From contig CADEDA010000011.1 in NCBI GenBank assembly GCA_902825965.1, forward strand, positions 7,535 to 56,081: 48,547 bases of DNA, written 5' to 3'. This stretch comes from an uncultured Gemmatimonadota bacterium (GTDB lineage: Bacteria; Gemmatimonadota; Gemmatimonadetes; Gemmatimonadales; Gemmatimonadaceae). The translations under genes were made by a program, and so were the position numbers. Position 1 is the first letter of the stretch, and the number at the start of each line of letters is the position of its first letter. The notes beneath the pieces were generated by a model that saw nothing but the letters and a program-made list of their open reading frames with translations, did not search any database and had not been told where the DNA came from. Below, piece after piece: positions 8,591 to 20,982 of the stretch.

Positions 8591-9556
8591 TCAGATCTCC
8601 CAGTTCGACAGCACCATACCGCGCGCCGGCTTGGGATCGGTGAATCCCACCAGCGTCATCCGGAGGTCGCTCCAGCGCACGCGCGCGCCGCGCGCCACCA
8701 GGCTCCGGAACGCCACATCGTACTCGCCCTGCACCCGGATCGCGCAACGCAGCGCCCCGCTGCGGCGCGCCTGCGCCTGCAGCGCCTCGGCCATCCGCGG
8801 CATGTAGGACTGCTCCACCAGCGCGAGCTTGAGCACGCGGATCTCCTCGCGGCTGCGGCCCTCCACCAACGGCACGTCGTGGAACAGCGCGAAGCCCTCG
8901 AGGCCACCCGCGTCGTCACGGAGCAGGAGGCAGTCGCCCAGCGCGTGGCGCAGCGTGATGCCGATCTCGCGCGTGAAGTCGAGCCCGGCGCGGATGCCAC
9001 CGGCGAGCGCGTTGCACTCCGCGATGATCGCCTCGCGCTCGGCCGCTCCGTGATGGCTGAGCAGCGGCGGGCGCACGTCCGTCAGCGGGGTCGCGTCGAT
9101 GCTCAGCGTGAGCGTGAGGTGGCCCGGCGAGAACCCCTGCGTGGCGTAGAACCCGATGTTGTCCATCGTGCGCGGCATCGTCTCGAGCCCGATCACGCGG
9201 CAGCCCGCACTGCGCAGGTGCTCGATCGCCGCCCGCACGACGCTCCGGCCGAGCCCGCGTCCCTGGAACTCGTCGCGCACGGCCAGCGGACCCATCCAGC
9301 CTTCGCTGCCGGAGGCATGCGCCACGTTGAACGCGGCGATGCGGCCGAGCCCGTCGCGCCAGAGCATGGCACCGCTGCCCGCACCTTCGATCGCGAACCG
9401 CCAGATGGCCGGATTCAGCGGCGGCACGCGCACGCCCACCATCCCGTCGCGCCGATACCGCTCGCTGAACGCGTCGCTGAACAGCGCGTTCAAGGCCCCG
9501 AGATCGTCGTGCCGGATGGGGAACGGCCCGGAGAGCCGCGCCGCGACGTCGCTCAT
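8591..9556 (-). CDS. GNAT-family acetyltransferase, two-domain
   Basis: A 321-residue protein. The N-terminal half (about 10-155) is a clear GNAT domain with the acetyl-CoA loop LAVRDEFQGRGLG at 91-103 and a typical beta6/beta7 ending (NIGFYATQGFSPGHLTLTL). The C-terminal half (about 165-321) looks like a second, degenerate GNAT fold without the Q/RxxGxG/A loop. The acceptor is unknown. Its ATG overlaps the sbcC stop (ATGA at 9553-9556), so it is translated from the same mRNA as the end-resection genes. Whether it modifies a repair protein or is a passenger is open. Confidence 0.85.
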   Translation of the reverse strand: MSDVAARLSGPFPIRHDDLGALNALFSDAFSERYRRDGMVGVRVPPLNPAIWRFAIEGAGSGAMLWRDGLGRIAAFNVAHASGSEGWMGPLAVRDEFQGRGLGRSVVRAAIEHLRSAGCRVIGLETMPRTMDNIGFYATQGFSPGHLTLTLSIDATPLTDVRPPLLSHHGAAEREAIIAECNALAGGIRAGLDFTREIGITLRHALGDCLLLRDDAGGLEGFALFHDVPLVEGRSREEIRVLKLALVEQSYMPRMAEALQAQARRSGALRCAIRVQGEYDVAFRSLVARGARVRWSDLRMTLVGFTDPKPARGMVLSNWEI

Positions 9557-11976
9557 GCGCCTGCCGTGACCATGTTCGCCTCTCCCCGCGTCACCACCGC
9601 GGCGCCACTGCGCTCGTCGAACCCGACGGAGATCACGCGGTCGAGCCCGTCGCGCACGCCCTCGATGTGCGTGATGACGATGACCTGCTCGAAGCGATCG
9701 TGCAAGCCGCGCAGCAGCGACAGCACGTTCTGACGCCGCACGTCGTCGAGCGACCCGAACACCTCGTCGAGCACCAGCAGCGAGAAGGCCTGCCCCGCGC
9801 GGTCGGCGATCATCTGCGAGATCGCGAGCCGCAGCACCAGGTTCGCGATGTCCTCCTCGCCCCCGGAGATCACCGGCTTGGGGACCCCCTCCTCGAGCAC
9901 GAGGAGCCGGTACTTGTCATCGAGCTCCAACTCCGTGTATCGCGCGTCGGTCAGCTCGGTGAGGAAGTTCGAGGCGATCTCGGACACCTCGGGCCGCAGC
10001 TGGAAGTTGAGGTCCGTGCGCAGGTCCGAGTAGGCGCGATGCAACTCGTCGTGCAGGCGGCGGTCCTTCTCCAGCGTGTCCACCTTGCCCGCCAGGCGAT
10101 CGAGTTCCGCCCGCAGCTCGGCCGCCCGCGCCGCACCGGCCTCGGCCAGCTCCCGGGCGGCCCGCGCTCCGGCCGCCGCCCGCGCCGCCTCGGCGTACGC
10201 GGCCGCGACCTCGTCGTGCAGGCGGCGCAGCTCCGCGTACTCCGACTCCGGGAACCGCAGGGCCGCGAGTCGCGTCGTGACGGCCTCGCGCCGCGCCGTC
10301 AGCGCGGCACGCTGCCGGGCCAGTGCCTCCTGCTCCCGGAGCAACGCCGGTTCCCGCTCGACGCGGGTCGCGTACCGGTTGGCGAGGGTGGACGACTCGG
10401 CGAGCCGCTCACGCTCCGCCTCGAGCAGGCGGTGACGCGTTTCGTCGTAGCCGCCGGGGATGGTCCCCAGCTCCGTGGTCGTCGCCGTCAGGCGACCCTC
10501 CTTGGCCGTGAGGTCGCGCTCGACCTGCACCAGCTGTGCGACCTCCGACTGCACCTTCGCGAGCTTGCGCTCCGTGAGGCCCACCTCGTGCTGGATGCGC
10601 TTGCGCTGCTCGTCGAGGTGTTCGACGTCGGCTGGCATCGCCTGCAGCTGCTCGAGTCGCGACTTGAAGTACGCCCCGTCGGCCTCGATGGTCTCCATCT
10701 GCCGCTCGAGCACGTCCAGCACGTTGCGGAAGTGCTCGCCGAGCGGGCGCGTGCAGGTGGGACAGGCGCCCTCCTCCCCGAGCTGCAGCAGGCGGTCGCG
10801 CTGGTCTCGGAGCTCGGTGTACTGCGCGCGCAGCGCACGGAGCCGCGTGTCCACCTCCTGCCGGTCCCGCACCCACTCGGTGCGTCGCGATTCCAGCTTG
10901 CCCTGCGCCTCCTCGAGGGCGGCACGGCCCCGCTCGAGTTCGAGGATGACCTCCTCCTCCGCGGCGGGCGCGCCCGAGAGCCGCTCCCGCTGCGCGCGCA
11001 GCGACTGCACCTCGGGTTCGAGCGCGGCCTGCGTCTCCACCAGCGCGCGCCGCCGTCCGTCGTGCACCGCCAGGGCCCGCTGCCCCTCGAGCTCCGTCGA
11101 CACGCGCTCGAAGGCCTCGATGTCCGGCAGCAGCGGGGTCAGGGCGGCGCGCGCCTCCGCCACCTGGGCGAGGTCGAGGGCGAGCCGTTCCTCCGACCGC
11201 CCGAGCGCGCCGGCCTCGCCGTCCACGGCGGCGAGTTCGGTCTCCAGCTTCTGCCGTTCGTCGCGCCCCGTCTGCGCCGCGAGCCAGCGCGGGGCCACGG
11301 AGTCCAGTGCCGCCTGCGTCTCCCGCTCGAGGCGCTCGGCCTCGCTCACCGCCTTGGCGGCAGCGGCGAGCGTGCCGCGGGCGTCCTTCTCCTGCTGCAG
11401 CACGGTGTCGCGGTCCGGCATCCCCGCCCGCAGCCCGGCGATCTCGCTGCCGAGTTCCTTGCGCCGCGCCCCGCAGAGCTCCTGCGCGATACGCAGCCGC
11501 TCGTAGCCGAGCACCCGCGAGAGGAACTGCGCGCGTTCGCCCGACGTGAGCGACTGCATCACGGCGAGTTCCTTCTGGCCCGTGAAGTACGTGTTGAAGA
11601 ACTCCGTGCGCGACATGCCGATGCGGCGCTGCAGCATCTCGGCCACCGCGGTCACCGAGTTCGCGATCGGCTGTTCGCCGCCGTCGAGGTAGAGTTCCGC
11701 CATCGAGAGGCCGCGCACCACGCGATACCGGTGACCGGCGAGCTCGAAGTCGAGTTCCACCCGCACCGGGGCGCGCGGGCCCGCCCGATGGAACCGCAGC
11801 GACTCGTTCCCGCCACGCGCCGTGTTGCCGCCGTAGAGCGCCCAGGCGATCGCCTCGAGGATCGTCGACTTGCCCGCCCCGTTCGGACCGATGATGCCCG
11901 TGAGCCCGAAGTCGAACTCGATCTCGGTCTCGGCATGTTGCCGGAAGTTCACCAACTTGAGGCGCGCCAGTCTCAC
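9553..11976 (-). CDS. sbcC: exonuclease subunit SbcC / Rad50-like ATPase
   Basis: An 807-residue SMC-like ATPase that with SbcD (Mre11) opens and trims DNA ends and hairpins. The N-terminal half-ATPase has Walker A GIIGPNGAGKSTILEA (residues about 28-43). Long coiled coils follow, broken near residue 406 by the zinc hook EEGACPTCTRPLG (CPTC). The C-terminal half carries Walker B LLVLDEVFGSLDD. It is shorter than E. coli SbcC (about 1050) and nearer to archaeal Rad50. GTG start at 11976 overlaps the sbcD stop (GTGA). It belongs to the nurA-herA-sbcD-sbcC cluster, where archaeal counterparts work as one resection machine. Confidence 0.95.
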   Translation of the reverse strand: MRLARLKLVNFRQHAETEIEFDFGLTGIIGPNGAGKSTILEAIAWALYGGNTARGGNESLRFHRAGPRAPVRVELDFELAGHRYRVVRGLSMAELYLDGGEQPIANSVTAVAEMLQRRIGMSRTEFFNTYFTGQKELAVMQSLTSGERAQFLSRVLGYERLRIAQELCGARRKELGSEIAGLRAGMPDRDTVLQQEKDARGTLAAAAKAVSEAERLERETQAALDSVAPRWLAAQTGRDERQKLETELAAVDGEAGALGRSEERLALDLAQVAEARAALTPLLPDIEAFERVSTELEGQRALAVHDGRRRALVETQAALEPEVQSLRAQRERLSGAPAAEEEVILELERGRAALEEAQGKLESRRTEWVRDRQEVDTRLRALRAQYTELRDQRDRLLQLGEEGACPTCTRPLGEHFRNVLDVLERQMETIEADGAYFKSRLEQLQAMPADVEHLDEQRKRIQHEVGLTERKLAKVQSEVAQLVQVERDLTAKEGRLTATTTELGTIPGGYDETRHRLLEAERERLAESSTLANRYATRVEREPALLREQEALARQRAALTARREAVTTRLAALRFPESEYAELRRLHDEVAAAYAEAARAAAGARAARELAEAGAARAAELRAELDRLAGKVDTLEKDRRLHDELHRAYSDLRTDLNFQLRPEVSEIASNFLTELTDARYTELELDDKYRLLVLEEGVPKPVISGGEEDIANLVLRLAISQMIADRAGQAFSLLVLDEVFGSLDDVRRQNVLSLLRGLHDRFEQVIVITHIEGVRDGLDRVISVGFDERSGAAVVTRGEANMVTAGA

Positions 11977-13259
11977 GCGTCGCTCCCGGGCGGCTCGCGC
12001 GTGGGCTCGGCGAGTTCGGCCTCCTCCAGGTAGCGCAGGCCCAGGGCGACCAGGGCCTCGCGCTCCACGCCGGCGGTCACGTTCCGGGCCCGCAGCGAGT
12101 CGCGCAGCGTCTCGGCGAGCGACGGTCGGCGGCCCGGCGAGCCCGAGGTCTGCCGCCGCACCATCTCCGGACGCCGCATGTCGAGGTGGAAGTGCAGTGC
12201 GCGTTTCTGCAACTCACGCAGCGCCTTGTGGTCCAGTTCGCGCGCGATGTGCCGCGGCACGTTGCGCGCGACCAGCCGCACGATCTTCCCGTCGATGCCC
12301 CCGGCGATGCGCGCCACGGCCGACTGGATCGCCGCGTCGAGGTCGGCGGCCGACATGCCCCGCCCCTCGATCGGCGGCAGGTCGAGCACCGCGCGCGACG
12401 GCGCCAAGGGATGGAAGCTCTGCTTCCCGGTGGCGAGGTCGCGTTCGATCATGCCCTTGCCGGGCAACTTCGCCTCGCGCTGCTCGGCCAGCTCGCCCCA
12501 GGGGTTGCTGCTCGTGTACTCGAGCGACCCGGAGTAGTAGACGTGGTCGGCGATCCGCTTGTAGACGTGGTAGTGGCCGAGCGCGACGTAGTCCCAGCCT
12601 GGTCGCGCGACCTCGTCGAGCGGGATCTGCATGGCCGCGCGGTCCGCGCCGTCGGCGTTGGGCAGCGCCCCCTGCACCTCGCCGTGCAGGAGCAGCACGT
12701 TGTACTTCGCGCTCGGGTCCGGGCGGAGCTCCACGCTGCCCGGCGGCAGGTCGGGCACCGCCAGCACCGACAGGCCGAGGTGCGGGAACGCGAAGCGCCG
12801 TGCCTCGCGGTCCGCCACGAGGATCGGCAACCCGCGCGTGGTCTCGTCGAGCAGCGGCGCGTCCTGGCGCACGCCCTCGCTCGCGTCCGCCGAGGCCGTG
12901 GGCCCGTCGCTCAGGCGCGAGGTGAATCCCTGCTCGAAGAGGCGGAGGATGCAGATGGTCTCCGTCGAGCGCGGCATGTCATGGTTGCCGGCGACCACGA
13001 CGACGTGCGCCGCCGGCAGCGCCTCCACGAGGCGCGCGAACTGCCGGAACGCGTGCAGGATGGCGGTGTTGGTGGGGCGCACCGTGTGGAACACGTCGCC
13101 GCCGACGAGGATCACATCCGGCGCGAGCTCGATGAGCTTGTCGACCGCACGCGCGAACGCCTGCGCGACGTCGGCTTCGCGTTGGTTGATGCCCGACGGC
13201 GTCTGCCGCTGGAACTGGCGGAAGCCGAGATGGAGGTCGGAGAGGTGGACGAGTCGCAC
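11973..13259 (-). CDS. sbcD: exonuclease subunit SbcD / Mre11-like nuclease
   Basis: A 428-residue calcineurin-like metallophosphoesterase, the nuclease half of SbcCD/Mre11-Rad50. The five metal-binding motifs are present: SDLHLG (7-12), GGDVFHT (about 53-59), GNHDMPRS (about 91-98), LLLHGEV and GHYHVYK. The C-terminal part (about 300-428) would hold the Rad50-binding helices. GTG start at 13259. On the minus strand a TAGATT box lies 9 nt before it, so sbcD may have its own promoter in the 55-bp gap after herA, besides read-through from nurA-herA. Confidence 0.95.
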   Translation of the reverse strand: MRLVHLSDLHLGFRQFQRQTPSGINQREADVAQAFARAVDKLIELAPDVILVGGDVFHTVRPTNTAILHAFRQFARLVEALPAAHVVVVAGNHDMPRSTETICILRLFEQGFTSRLSDGPTASADASEGVRQDAPLLDETTRGLPILVADREARRFAFPHLGLSVLAVPDLPPGSVELRPDPSAKYNVLLLHGEVQGALPNADGADRAAMQIPLDEVARPGWDYVALGHYHVYKRIADHVYYSGSLEYTSSNPWGELAEQREAKLPGKGMIERDLATGKQSFHPLAPSRAVLDLPPIEGRGMSAADLDAAIQSAVARIAGGIDGKIVRLVARNVPRHIARELDHKALRELQKRALHFHLDMRRPEMVRRQTSGSPGRRPSLAETLRDSLRARNVTAGVEREALVALGLRYLEEAELAEPTREPPGSDA

Positions 13260-13314
13260 GCGGAGGGAAATCTAAGAGCGGACCCGAGCCGCTGGACGCC
13301 CGGCGCAGCCGGAC

Positions 13315-15270
13315 TCAGCCGTACGGGTCGTCGCTCGCCGGCACCCGGAGCGGCGTCGGACCGCGCCGCGCCGCCACCTCGGGCGTCGCGCGCTTGCGCA
13401 GCTGCGCCTTGAAGAACGCCTTCACGTCGTCCGGCTTGGCCTGCAGCGTCCGGTTCCGCGCACGCAGGATGCCATCCTCGTCCTCGCCCGCGAGCGCGAG
13501 GGCGTCCTGCACCCAGCCCAGGCTGATCGTCGGATCGAGCCGCCGGAGCGCGCGCGTGATCGCCGCGTCCAGCGCCATCTCCTCGGCTTGCGGAAAGCGC
13601 TCCACGCCCTCGCGCCCGGTGAGCACCGCCGGACGCGGGAAGCGCACGAAGATCGGCTGCCCGAAGTGCGGGTGCCGGACCATGAGCTGGCCCTTCTCCA
13701 GCGTCGCCAGCCGCGCCTTGGTGGCCGGCGCGAGCGTCTGGTAGCCCGGGGTCGCCAGCTCGTCCGGATCCATCCGGCCGTACAGCGTGCTGCCGCTGTT
13801 GCCCACCACGCGACGGTGCACCTGCGAGCGGAACTGCTGGGCGCCGAACAGCACCAGGCCCAGGTAGCGCCCGCGCTCGGCGATGTCGAGCAGCATCTTG
13901 CGTACGTAGGTGTCCGGTCCGTCGGCCGGGGCGTACTTGTTGAGCTCGTCCACGAACACGATCACCTGCTCCACGCCGAGTTGCCGCTTCTCGAGGTGCT
14001 CGCGCAGCTGGGAGACGATGCGGGCGAAGACGAGGTCCTGCGCGTCCTCCTCGAGGTTGGCGACGTCCACGACGTAGACCGCCCGGTCCTGCATGCTCCC
14101 GAACGGCAGGTCGCTGACCATGCCGTCATCGGTGACCAGGCCCTTGCAGCGCGTGGAGATGTTGGTGAGCCGGTTGCGGACCTTGCGGATGGTGGCGATG
14201 TGATGGGTGCGCCAGACGTCGCTGTTCCGCGCCTCGAGGCCGCGCAACAGCTCCCGGAACCACTGCTCCAGGTCGCTGAACGAGCGCACCTCGTGCGCAC
14301 GCTCGAGCGCGGGGTCGCTGAACACCTGGTCGAGCACGCGCTCCTTGATGAAGTCGATCAAGGCATCCGCCTTGGCGTCCACGTCATCCTTGTTCAGCAG
14401 CACCTCGGCGTACTGCAACGTCTCGCGCAGTCCCCAGGTGAGCGGCGTGACGTTGTGCTGCAGCGCCTCGTTGGAGCGCAACGTGGCCAGCTGCCCGCCC
14501 TTGGCGGACCAGGGCGCGAAGTAGTGCACGTTCGCGAACGGCGCGGCCGGGACGCCGAGCCGCGCGTAGATCGCCCGGTCCTCCTCGGTCAGCGAGGTGG
14601 CGGGCTGGTCGAGGAAGCAGAGGTCGGGGCCCTTCACGTTGAAGCACACCGCCGCGACACGGCCCTTGGACGCCGGGAAGTGCGCGAAGATGCTCCCCAG
14701 CAGCCACTCCACCGCGCTGGTCTTGGTCGCGAGCCCGCTGACGCCGGAGATGCTGAGATGTGCGGCCTCGGGCCCGAGCAGGAAGTCGGCGTCGAGATGC
14801 ACCGCCGCCTCGGTGCCACCCGCGCGATACAGCCCCACCGGGATGCCGCGCGCCGCCGACCCGCCCACGTAGCTGTCCATGCGCAGCGCCGCGTGTACGT
14901 CGGCCTCGGTGGCGAGGTGCACCGTGCCCATGGGCACGGGCTGGAGCGGTTCCTCCGGCACGTGGCGCAGCACGGCCGCGGTGTACAGGCGGATCTCGGT
15001 GCGCTCCGTCGGGGCGAATGCGCTGCCGGCCGGCTCGCCATCGGCGCCGAGCACGTCGTGCAGCGGCGTCTGGAGGTCCGTGTAGCCGAAGCCCTCGGTG
15101 ACCACGCCATAGATGGTCGGCAGCACCCCGGCGATGGGACGCGCCGACTCGACGCGCACGATCGTCCCGATGCCGATCGGGGCATCGAGGGCGGTCCAGA
15201 AGTGGAACTCGTGGGGCGTGTTGGGGCGGCGCTCGGTGGCGACGACCCGCCCGAGGATCGGCGTGGTCAT
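13315..15270 (-). CDS. HerA-like hexameric ATPase/translocase (DUF87)
   Basis: A 651-residue FtsK/HerA-class ATPase. The N-terminal about 165 residues form a HAS-barrel-like region. The P-loop is unusual: GVSGLATKTS at 176-185 with Lys183, in place of the GxxGxGKS seen in canonical HerA. Walker B is clear (VIVFVDELNKYAP, near residue 440), followed by RGRYLGLVLFGAQQFRSQVHRRVVGNSGS, which holds the sensor/arginine-finger-type residues of HerA proteins. HerA pumps DNA for the NurA nuclease in archaeal end resection. Its ATG overlaps the stop of the NurA-like gene (ATGA), and sbcD/sbcC follow 55 bp later, which supports the assignment. Confidence 0.85.
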   Translation of the reverse strand: MTTPILGRVVATERRPNTPHEFHFWTALDAPIGIGTIVRVESARPIAGVLPTIYGVVTEGFGYTDLQTPLHDVLGADGEPAGSAFAPTERTEIRLYTAAVLRHVPEEPLQPVPMGTVHLATEADVHAALRMDSYVGGSAARGIPVGLYRAGGTEAAVHLDADFLLGPEAAHLSISGVSGLATKTSAVEWLLGSIFAHFPASKGRVAAVCFNVKGPDLCFLDQPATSLTEEDRAIYARLGVPAAPFANVHYFAPWSAKGGQLATLRSNEALQHNVTPLTWGLRETLQYAEVLLNKDDVDAKADALIDFIKERVLDQVFSDPALERAHEVRSFSDLEQWFRELLRGLEARNSDVWRTHHIATIRKVRNRLTNISTRCKGLVTDDGMVSDLPFGSMQDRAVYVVDVANLEEDAQDLVFARIVSQLREHLEKRQLGVEQVIVFVDELNKYAPADGPDTYVRKMLLDIAERGRYLGLVLFGAQQFRSQVHRRVVGNSGSTLYGRMDPDELATPGYQTLAPATKARLATLEKGQLMVRHPHFGQPIFVRFPRPAVLTGREGVERFPQAEEMALDAAITRALRRLDPTISLGWVQDALALAGEDEDGILRARNRTLQAKPDDVKAFFKAQLRKRATPEVAARRGPTPLRVPASDDPYG

Positions 15271-16196
15271 GCGAGGATGGCCGTAAGGTACTGCTCGCAG
15301 TCGCGGATGCCGTAGACCATCACGTCCCAGCGCTGGTCCGGCAGCGCCACCGGCGCGCGCTCGGCGAGCAGCCAGCGCGAGACGAGATCCGCCCGCGCGG
15401 TGAGGTCGCGCGTCTCGGGACTCACCTCCACGCGCACCAAGCCGAACAGCGGCGAGCGCCCGGCCGGGTCCCGGAGTCGCAGGTACCACGAGGCCACCGG
15501 ATGCCGACGCGGCGACGTCACCCGCACCGCCGTGCTGCGCTCCCCTTCCCGCAGCCCCAACAGCAGCGGCAGTGCGTCCTCGCCGGTGTAGAGCGTGCGA
15601 TGCGATTTCACGACCCCGATCACCCCGTCGTGCCGCGCGCCGTCGGCATGGCCGGCGATGCCGCCGTCCACCACGAGTGTGCCCGCACCGCGCGCGGTCC
15701 ACGCCGAGACGAGTTCGCCCTCGGCTGCCTCGCGGGCCCGCTGCACGGCGGTGAGGGCGCGCGCGGTGATCTCCTGCGGGTGCCGGCTGGGGACCTCCCC
15801 GAGGTCGTGCACCTGCACGCGCGCACGCAGCGCCTCGGCGAGGGGTGCGGGCAGGAGTGCCAGCGGGGCGAAGAGGGCGCGGCGCAGCCGTGGCGCGTCC
15901 CAGGTGCGCAGCCGCCGATCGACACGCAGGCGGATCGCCGCCGCCACCGCACCATGCACCAACGGCACACCGTCCACGTGTGCGACGACCTGTGAGCGTT
16001 GGATCCCGTCGAGGAAGGCCGCGACACCGGCCACGGGCGGCTCGGGGATGGTGCGCACGGCGATACGCTCACCTTCGATGGGCACCGCGGCTTCGAGTCG
16101 CGGCGGTTCGTCGCTGCGGGGCTGGACCTCGAGCGGGGCCGCCGCGCCCGAGGGCGCGACGCCGCTGTCACGAAGTGCCCGGAGGGTGGCGCGCAC
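15267..16196 (-). CDS. NurA-like nuclease
   Basis: A 309-residue protein whose sequence and position match NurA, the 5'-to-3' nuclease partner of HerA. The RNase H-like active-site acids are probably Asp63 in AAFLDGIQRSQ and Asp177 in TLVVDGGIAGH. After the second come GVVKSHRTLY and the late IRDCEQYLTAILA. Start: an ATG at 16235 is in frame, but its codon overlaps the ATG of the divergent lipoprotein gene (CATG at 16233-16236) and would lie inside that gene's promoter. GTG 16196 has a purine-rich GGAGGGGG upstream and is preferred. The stop overlaps the herA start. Confidence 0.8.
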   Translation of the reverse strand: MRATLRALRDSGVAPSGAAAPLEVQPRSDEPPRLEAAVPIEGERIAVRTIPEPPVAGVAAFLDGIQRSQVVAHVDGVPLVHGAVAAAIRLRVDRRLRTWDAPRLRRALFAPLALLPAPLAEALRARVQVHDLGEVPSRHPQEITARALTAVQRAREAAEGELVSAWTARGAGTLVVDGGIAGHADGARHDGVIGVVKSHRTLYTGEDALPLLLGLREGERSTAVRVTSPRRHPVASWYLRLRDPAGRSPLFGLVRVEVSPETRDLTARADLVSRWLLAERAPVALPDQRWDVMVYGIRDCEQYLTAILA

Positions 16197-16198
16197 GC

Positions 16199-16227
16199 TT
16201 GCCGCCCCCTCCGACGAGGCGTAGCTT
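16199..16227 (+). promoter_or_regulatory. predicted leaderless promoter of the 16234 lipoprotein
   Basis: TTGCCG (16199-16204), 17-bp spacer, TAGCTT (16222-16227), then 6 nt (ggcccc) and the ATG at 16234. The predicted first transcribed base falls at or next to the start codon. Confidence 0.6.
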
Positions 16228-16233
16228 GGCCCC

Positions 16234-17187
16234 ATGCGCCGACCTGCGTTCATCGCGAGCATCCTAACCCTGGCCCTGGCGTGCGACAAGCCAGCGCCGA
16301 CCCCTGAGTCCCTCGTCGATGCCGGACCGCCAGTGCCGGAAGGCGCGACGGTGCTCTTCCAGGTCTTCGGCTCCCGCGACGAGCCGCACGCGGCACCCAT
16401 CGCCACGCTGCGCAACGGCCGGCTGCAGCCGTTCGATCTGGTCGCGTCGCAGTGGACGGCCCTCGACTCCATCTACTTCGCCGAACGTGCGCGTCTCCCG
16501 ATCTACCGGAACGGCGCGGACGCGGGCACGGCCGAGGTCGTGCGCGGCATGTGGCCGGCGAATCAGGAGGCCCTCTACTCGCTGCCGGGATGCACCGAGG
16601 TGGTGCCGCAGGCGCAGCTGCGGCTCTTCGCGACCATCAACGTCGACCAGAGCGTCGAGTTCCTCGCGACGTCCGCCCCGCTGGTGCAGAAGAAGCCCGA
16701 CAACAAGCCACTCCCGTCGGACGCCGAATCGAAGGGGCGCACGATCGCCAACGCGGTCGCCGCGGCCCGCGACCTGGGGAATGAGGAGCTCGGGCACCTC
16801 GAGTTCATCTCCCGCTACCTGCGCACCGGTGCCGGGCCGACGGGCCTCACGTTGCTCGCCTCCTACATCGACCCCGACGCCGGTGACGCGGGCCCGGGCG
16901 CCGGCCACGCGTCGATGGTGCTCGCGTTCGCCGAGGACTCGGCCGGCACGGTGAAGACCAGCTATCAGCATGTCTCCAGCGGCGAGGCGCGCGCGGTGGA
17001 GTTCCAGCGCGTCGTCAACCATGTCGACCTCGATGCCGACGGGGTCGACGAGATCTTCGTGGAGTCCTGGCGCTACGCGAGCACGCGCGACCTCATCGTG
17101 CTCAAGCTCACCGCCGGCAAGTGGAAGCCGATCTTCCGCCACACCACCGACTGGTGCGTCGCCGCACCCAAGTCGGGCGGGAACTAG
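16234..17187 (+). CDS. hypothetical lipoprotein
   Basis: A 317-residue protein with a short signal sequence and lipobox LALAC (Cys17), so probably anchored in the envelope. The mature part is beta-rich and of no family I can name. Near the C-terminus, NHVDLDADGVDEIFVESWRY has a DxDxDGxDE pattern as in FG-GAP/EF-hand-like calcium loops, followed by LIVLKLTAGKWKPIF, which resembles the closing strand of such units. It is transcribed divergently from nurA and convergently with the AsnC-type gene. Its role is unknown. Confidence 0.75.
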   Translation: MRRPAFIASILTLALACDKPAPTPESLVDAGPPVPEGATVLFQVFGSRDEPHAAPIATLRNGRLQPFDLVASQWTALDSIYFAERARLPIYRNGADAGTAEVVRGMWPANQEALYSLPGCTEVVPQAQLRLFATINVDQSVEFLATSAPLVQKKPDNKPLPSDAESKGRTIANAVAAARDLGNEELGHLEFISRYLRTGAGPTGLTLLASYIDPDAGDAGPGAGHASMVLAFAEDSAGTVKTSYQHVSSGEARAVEFQRVVNHVDLDADGVDEIFVESWRYASTRDLIVLKLTAGKWKPIFRHTTDWCVAAPKSGGN

Positions 17188-19455: not shown

Positions 19456-20982
19456 GTGACTGCTTCCGAGCGCGAGACGGCTGGTTCCGTCCGCTCCGCC
19501 AACCTGGCGTATGTGCTTCCCCCCGATTGGTCCCGCGTGGCGCGCCTCGCGGCGCCGGCGCTCGAGCGCAGCACGCGTGAGTCCTCGACCACATCGCTCC
19601 TGATCATCGTGCCGGACGCCGCTGCGGCGGTGTCGCTCGCACGCGCCATCGCACTCCTGCCCGCCGCCGCCGGCCGCCGCATCGTCGCGGCCAGCACGGT
19701 CGGCCGCGGCAAGCGCTTGCTGGCCGCCGGCGCCGCGCACGCGGTGATCGGTGCGCCCGCCGCGCTGGCCACGCTGCTCGCCGCGTCCTCCCTCAAGCTC
19801 GACGAGGCCAAGGCGGTCGTGTTCGCGGCGGCCGACTCGCTCGACGCGGACGATGCGGACATCGCTGCGGTGATGGCGGAGGTCCCCAAGGCAGCCGCGC
19901 GCGTGCTCACGGCACTCCACTTCACGCCCTCGGTCGAAGCCCTGCTCGAACGGTACCTGCACAAGGCCCGCCGCGTGGTCGAGGACGTCGCGCCGGCACA
20001 GCCCATCGCTGGCGCACCGACGCTGCGCTACCTGACCGTCGCCGGGTCGCCGGTGGACGCCCTCGCCGCGGTACTCGACGACGTCGATGCCCCGTCCGCG
20101 ACGATCCTCACGGCCGACACGGCGACCGCCGATGCAGCCCGGGCCCTCATCGCGGCGCTGGGCTACAGCGACGCCGGTCCAACGCTCGCACTCGCGCGCG
20201 TCAGCGACGGCGACGTCGAGCGCAACAGCGCCCTCGTCGTGCTCCTCGGGGTGCCCACCGCGACCGTCTGGGGCAAGGTCGCCGCGGCGGAGCCGGCACA
20301 GGTGGTCGCCATCTGCACGCCGCGGGATCGCGAGGCACTGCAACTGCTTGTCGCGCCGGAGCGCATCCAGCCCTTCGTGGGCAAGGCGTCCGTGCTGAAG
20401 GCACGCGCGGCCGAGGCCAAGCAACGCGCCGAGCTGCGTCGGGTGCTGGCGGACGGCATCCCGGCGCGTGAGATGCTGGCCCTCGAGCCATTGTTGGGTG
20501 AGTTCGACGGTCTCGAGATCGCCGCCGCCGCGCTCCGCCTGCTCGATCAGGCCCGGAGCGGCAAGGCGGAGGCCATCGCCGAGGCCGAGGCCCGCGTGCA
20601 CGCCGTGATGAAGGAGGCCGCGAAGGAAGCGGCCCGCAGCGACGCCGAGTCGCCGGCCCCCGCGCGCCCCGCATTCGGTTCCCGCGAGCGCTCCCATGAT
20701 CGCGGCAGTGATCGCGGCAGTGATCGCGGCAGTGTTCGCGGCGGTGACCGAACCAGCGACCGTGGCGAGCGGCCTCGCGGATTCGGTGCCCGCGGCGATC
20801 GCCCCAAGCCCTTCGGCGCCCGTGGTGACCGCCCCAGCGGGCCGCGTGGCGACAAGCCCTTCGGCGCGCGTGGCGACAAGCCCTTCTCTCCCCGTGGCGA
20901 CAAGCCGTTCGGCGCGCGGAGCGACAAGCCACGCGGTCCCCGTCGCGACGACGGCCCGCGCGGACCGAGGGGCCCGCGGTGA
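19456..20982 (+). CDS. DEAD-box-helicase-like protein lacking catalytic motifs, with RG-rich tail
   Basis: A 508-residue protein that I read as a degenerate DEAD-box helicase. Residues 47-170 follow the order of RecA domain 1 without its motifs: [13 protein letters not shown] (PTREL position), [14 protein letters not shown] (TPGRLLD position), [14 protein letters not shown] (DEAD position), [19 protein letters not shown] (SAT position and following helix). No GxGKT, DEAD or SAT is present. Residues 190-310 resemble domain 2 ([40 protein letters not shown]) but lack the HRxGRxxR arginines. Residues 401-508 are Arg/Gly/Asp-rich with DRGS and GDKPFGAR repeats, like RNA-binding tails. The family resemblance is inference. 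Its stop overlaps the tdk start (GTGA). Confidence 0.7.
20698..20733 (+). repeat. 12-bp tandem repeat, three perfect units
   Basis: GATCGCGGCAGT repeated three times, followed by a diverged fourth. In phase it encodes DRGS units at the start of the RG-rich tail of the helicase-like protein. Confidence 0.9.

Follow-up and report, generated by a model that had tools for sequence, protein, structure and literature searches.

The question raised by this locus is whether a bacterial cluster of nurA, herA, sbcD and sbcC represents archaeal end-resection machinery, and whether it takes the place of AddAB/RecBCD. The window, i.e., the whole stretch of DNA analysed, comprises 48,547 nt of an uncultured Gemmatimonadota bacterium (GCA_902825965.1, contig CADEDA010000011.1), and coordinates are positions in it. 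On its minus strand five genes form a compact head-to-tail cluster: nurA (15267..16253), herA (13315..15270), sbcD (11973..13259), sbcC (9553..11976) and a GNAT acetyltransferase gene (8591..9556). Three of the four junctions (nurA/herA, sbcD/sbcC and sbcC/GNAT) are 4-bp overlaps, and herA is separated from sbcD by a 55-bp gap. In a preliminary description of this DNA the first two overlaps, the gap and the common strand had been noted, which the coordinates confirm, and the four gene names given there are correct according to profiles, fold and motifs. Its span (8591-16196) takes in the GNAT gene, on which its text is silent. The start at 16196 proposed there for the nurA product is probably an internal GTG, since homologues align upstream to approximately 16253 or 16235; one of these positions, both ATG, is the probable start.

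The product of 15267-16253 is, as judged from profiles and a predicted structure, a NurA nuclease of bacterial type with an RNase H-like NurA fold. A Pfam search alone gave no NurA match across the window's genome; PF09376 reached 11.7 bits with this protein, below the cut-off of 21. The absence of NurA implied by Pfam alone was rejected as a sensitivity limit, overturned by family profiles and fold. The single sequence matched D. radiodurans NurA (7f6d) in the PDB at E 0.004, and the family profile matched it at 2.2e-18 and T. maritima TM1739 at 6.8e-8. The nine best fold matches of the predicted structure (AF2 pLDDT 92.1) were seven NurA entries (1zup, 7f6d, 2ygk, 9x1m, 9x1n, 3tai, 3tal) and two TdpAB entries, with Z from 18.9 to 11.7 (1zup, 18.9; 7f6d, 18.8; 2ygk, 14.6; 8wfd (TdpAB), 13.8; 9x1m, 12.5; 3tai, 12.1). 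Argonaute and EndoV folds scored lower (Z 9.7 or less). TM1739 (1zup) is alike in fold and profile but has 19% identity to the window's NurA, and it is little characterised (PMC9960219). Among 43 homologues D82 (FLDG), D196 (VDG) and E276 (328-aa numbering) are invariant, and E178 is nearly so. D82 is aligned with the DG motif of DrNurA when the family profile is compared with the PDB, and would by inference be the counterpart of D53, mutation of which inactivates the enzyme (PMC4663267). Failure to match NurA and missing active-site acids had been named in the preliminary description as grounds against the assignment; profile, fold and conserved acids show that neither occurred.

The herA product is assigned to the HerA/FtsK superfamily of DNA translocases, in a divergent bacterial clade designated here type A. 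Pfam gave no match to it, and the HerA equivalog model reached 17.6 bits against a cut-off of 800; genes of type A are missed by standard family models (Pfam, NCBIfam). In the PDB, phmmer found D. radiodurans HerA (7f6d_B) at E 1.4e-46, and the family profile matched its residues 12-609 at E 8.6e-155. K183 of the P-loop SGVSGLATKT is aligned with K175 of drHerA, and D441/E442 in DELNKYAP are invariant among homologues. In drHerA, K175 and D487/E488 are required for ATPase activity and resection (PMC9960219), and their counterparts are invariant here. The P-loop was considered as a new variant and rejected, since D. radiodurans HerA shares it and K175 has been tested there (PMC9960219). At the C-terminus (window 13315-13335) HerA and its homologues end, after a stretch of low conservation, in a conserved tail of acidic and aromatic residues, DDPYG(F) or DDPF in most cases; of 43 rows, at least 90% have D648 and P649. 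The DDP[YF] tail could possibly be a docking motif.

The remaining genes of the cluster were recognised by standard models. SbcD, a Mre11-type nuclease, matched TIGR00619 (sbcD) with 81.4 bits, above the cut-off of 77.65, and PF00149 at 1.7e-12. SbcC is a short Rad50-type ATPase of 807 aa carrying both ATPase halves (Walker A/B) and a CxxC zinc hook (CPTC); it matched AAA_23 (3.2e-23), SbcC_Walker_B (5.3e-8), weakly Rad50_zn_hook at residues 394-415, and Rad50 models down to 3.8e-59. The acetyltransferase (PF00583, 2.4e-12) is the fifth conserved gene of the cluster, and follows sbcC in relatives, including those without nurA-herA.

The distribution of the cluster was surveyed in 200 genomes of the phylum Gemmatimonadota. 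HerA was found in 131 of them, as type A, the window's type, in 106 and as a Deinococcus-like type B in 25. Type B is approximately 30-35% identical to type A, and one type-B protein of the phylum matches D. radiodurans HerA at 1e-154 as a single sequence. In a tree of 52 HerA rows, type B and D. radiodurans HerA lie on one side of a branch with 100/100 support, apart from type A. The relatives are Gemmatimonadaceae, and type A also occurs in Armatimonadota, which share the nurA-herA-sbcD-sbcC order, and in Cyanobacteria UBA8156 and Caenarcanum. HerA identity drops with taxonomic distance; the gene is widespread, mostly single-copy and in a fixed place amid sbcD, sbcC and GNAT. Bacterial NurA-HerA had been described as present only in few bacteria such as Deinococcus-Thermus (PMC9960219); a distinct version is now placed in about half of the sampled phylum genomes, as well as in Armatimonadota and Cyanobacteria. 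Among the papers searched, none named HerA, NurA and Gemmatimonas together. In a plasmid collection six HerA homologues (H1-H6) were found, from Streptomyces, Nonomuraea, cyanobacteria and Chlorohelix, labelled as ATP-binding or hypothetical proteins or left unannotated.

Each of the 124 genomes with NurA also has HerA, and seven of the 200 have HerA without detectable NurA. In one locus (L035:6766-7387, genome G102) the place of nurA is empty, nothing resembling nurA being encoded between herA and the next ORF upstream; in family f9 nurA is kept though unlinked to herA. Linkage was tested with 80 loci that a scan of public genomes had yielded. Where the locus had room upstream (73 loci), nurA was found no more than 200 bp from herA in 59; where at least 6.5 kb were available downstream (41 loci), 37 carried sbcD, sbcC and GNAT together. 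The clustering is therefore not due to chance. Spacer genes often stand between herA and sbcD in relatives, which makes a strict four-protein machine less likely. In L049:9514-10422 and other relatives the gene between them encodes a secreted-looking protein with a weak DUF6263 match, just under the cut-off.

Natural deletions of the pair are documented in relatives. In L187:3878-7060 (G018) and in L188-L200 both nurA and herA are gone while sbcD-sbcC are kept, nearly always with GNAT; in L187 the genes for the flanking aminotransferase and lipoprotein have also stayed in place. SbcC was matched over its full or nearly its full length in 14 of the 15 HerA-lacking relatives searched. In L183 and L184 (G027 and G169, same-genus genomes of approximately 1.8-2.1 Mb) nurA-herA are absent, and the sbcC match is in several pieces. 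Joint absence with retention of sbcD-sbcC indicates that nurA-herA form a unit that is conserved yet dispensable and separable from SbcCD.

The preliminary description had called for a genome-wide search for recBCD, addAB and adnAB, and none was found in the window's genome, which is 95% complete. The RecB-family PD-(D/E)XK nuclease domain (PF12705) had no match there, with 12 of 14 control genomes positive, and it is also absent from a same-genus genome (G127, one contig, rated 100% complete); the addA profile gave UvrD-like matches only. Ku was searched for in the window's genome and not detected, whereas RecJ, RecQ and RecO were found. Resection of broken ends by a DNA motor and a nuclease acting together is common to HerA-NurA and AddAB/RecBCD, but the proteins are unrelated. 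With AddAB-like defined as a strong PF12705 match (E<=1e-20), such matches occur in 15/106 type-A, 25/25 type-B and 52/69 HerA-less genomes. The difference between type-A and other genomes (15/106 versus 77/94, Fisher p 3e-23) is confounded by ancestry, and within families f1 and f2 the contrast is gone (14/100 with HerA versus 2/12 without, hand count). HerA and AddAB-like genes stand together in 40 of the 200 genomes, and in 17 others, mainly close relatives, both HerA and a strong AddAB-type match are lacking. HerA-NurA as a simple stand-in for AddAB was therefore rejected: the contrast is mainly between clades, vanishes in f1 and f2, and the 25 type-B genomes carry both systems without exception. 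The earlier suggestion of a different double-strand-break pathway is plausible; it is overstated in view of RecJ, RecQ and RecO and of the genomes with both systems or neither.

The operon most probably encodes a long-inherited, divergent bacterial HerA-NurA end-resection pair which works with SbcCD to feed RecFOR/RecA. What the analysis itself shows in favour of this reading are the gene identities, the conserved catalytic residues, the NurA fold, conservation of the operon, co-occurrence and joint loss of HerA and NurA, the failure to find an AddAB/RecBCD-type nuclease or Ku in the window's genome, and the presence of RecJ, RecQ and RecO. The D. radiodurans HerA-NurA complex resects DNA ends (PMC9960219), and assembly of the ring, translocation, the polarity of resection and joint action with SbcCD are proposed here by analogy with D. 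radiodurans and archaeal biochemistry. A hexameric ring of HerA, the structure of which was predicted as a monomer, would drive duplex DNA into a dimer of NurA attached to its HAS-barrel face. NurA would cut the threaded DNA back, leaving a 3' single strand. Ends that are blocked or folded into hairpins could be opened or trimmed by SbcD-SbcC (Mre11-Rad50), allowing the ring to load. It is the interaction of Rad50, Mre11 and HerA in Sulfolobus, archaeal proteins that co-precipitate (PMC2288612), that suggests this end-cleaning role. The 3' tail would then be passed to RecFOR/RecA, alongside RecQ-RecJ.

The window's system is a divergent, widespread variant of the known HerA-NurA machine. It shares with D. 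radiodurans NurA-HerA (7f6d; PMC9960219) the protein families, the P-loop SG[IV]SG[LV]ATKT and DELNKYAP; there, too, nurA and herA are treated as one operon, in a genome without RecBCD/AddAB (PMC9960219). It differs in that D. radiodurans HerA groups with type B, apart from the separate type-A clade, in the longer C-terminus ending in DDP[YF], and in the linkage of nurA-herA to sbcD-sbcC-GNAT. With the archaeal HerA-NurA-Mre11-Rad50 cluster (Sulfolobus, Thermococcus; PMC2288612, PMC12977600) it has in common the four functions in one cluster and the NurA fold (Z 14.6 with S. solfataricus and 12.5 with T. kodakarensis NurA). It is unlike that cluster in its partners, namely bacterial SbcCD in a RecJ/RecQ/RecO background, and in HerA itself, the family profile of which matched no archaeal HerA structure in the PDB at E<=0.1.

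Three other explanations have to be weighed. One is that a herA-nurA-mre11-rad50 operon was recently acquired from archaea. Hyperthermophilic archaea do have the same four-gene set (PMC2288612), but such an import is hardly credible given the D. radiodurans-type HerA match, the very low equivalog score and a clade that spans Gemmatimonadota, Armatimonadota with shared gene order, and Cyanobacteria. By its sequence relationships the operon is bacterial in type and recent archaeal transfer is not needed, so that the term "archaeal-style", read as a statement of origin, was not borne out. An anti-phage defence module combining a HerA-like ATPase with a nuclease, comparable to MADS, HerA-DUF4297/SIR2 or TdpAB, is suggested by the PADLOC model mad8, which matches HerA at 2.3e-11, by matches of LmuB and mad3 to SbcC at ~1e-30, by the similarity in fold between NurA and TdpAB (Z 13.8) and by the HerA homologues on plasmids. 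SbcC, however, matches many ATPase families, and the widespread, mostly single-copy genes in their fixed place, with identity tracking taxonomy, are unlike patchy defence-island turnover. The nine neighbouring window ORFs scanned are housekeeping genes or have no match, and neither a modification gene nor an abortive-infection partner was seen beside the ATPase. Defence of the MADS or TdpAB type was rejected on this ground, and a defence function in general appears very improbable.

A serious rival, albeit an unlikely one, is that HerA-NurA is auxiliary or regulatory, e.g., tuning RecJ or limiting recombination, while RecQ-RecJ performs most resection. drHerA stimulates RecJ and drNurA blocks this stimulation (PMC4663267), RecJ and RecQ are available in the window's genome, some relatives do without both HerA-NurA and strong AddAB-type genes, and NurA is sometimes missing where HerA is retained. 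Against this, the two genes have long been conserved, their catalytic residues are intact and they co-occur, all of which points to a joint enzyme activity. In D. radiodurans HerA-NurA adds little to radiation resistance, and recJ and nurA mutants show opposite phenotypes (PMC4663267), so the status of the preferred end-resection pair as a main resection pathway is not assured.

A more far-reaching form of the end-resection reading is put forward tentatively, as a doubtful but real prospect. Type A would be a second bacterial HerA-NurA lineage and the main end-resection motor-nuclease of Gemmatimonadaceae and of relatives without AddAB/RecBCD. It would form a single assembly with SbcCD, and its control might lie with the GNAT protein or the DDP[YF] tail of HerA. 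Since the sampled Gemmatimonadota with type A mostly lack AddAB-type genes, HerA-NurA may be in them the primary, rather than a back-up, resection machine, and such bacteria are available both with and without the SbcCD linkage. Elsewhere in the window, the plus-strand ORF 19456-20982, without a Pfam match at E<=0.001, encodes a long RG/RGD-rich repetitive tail.
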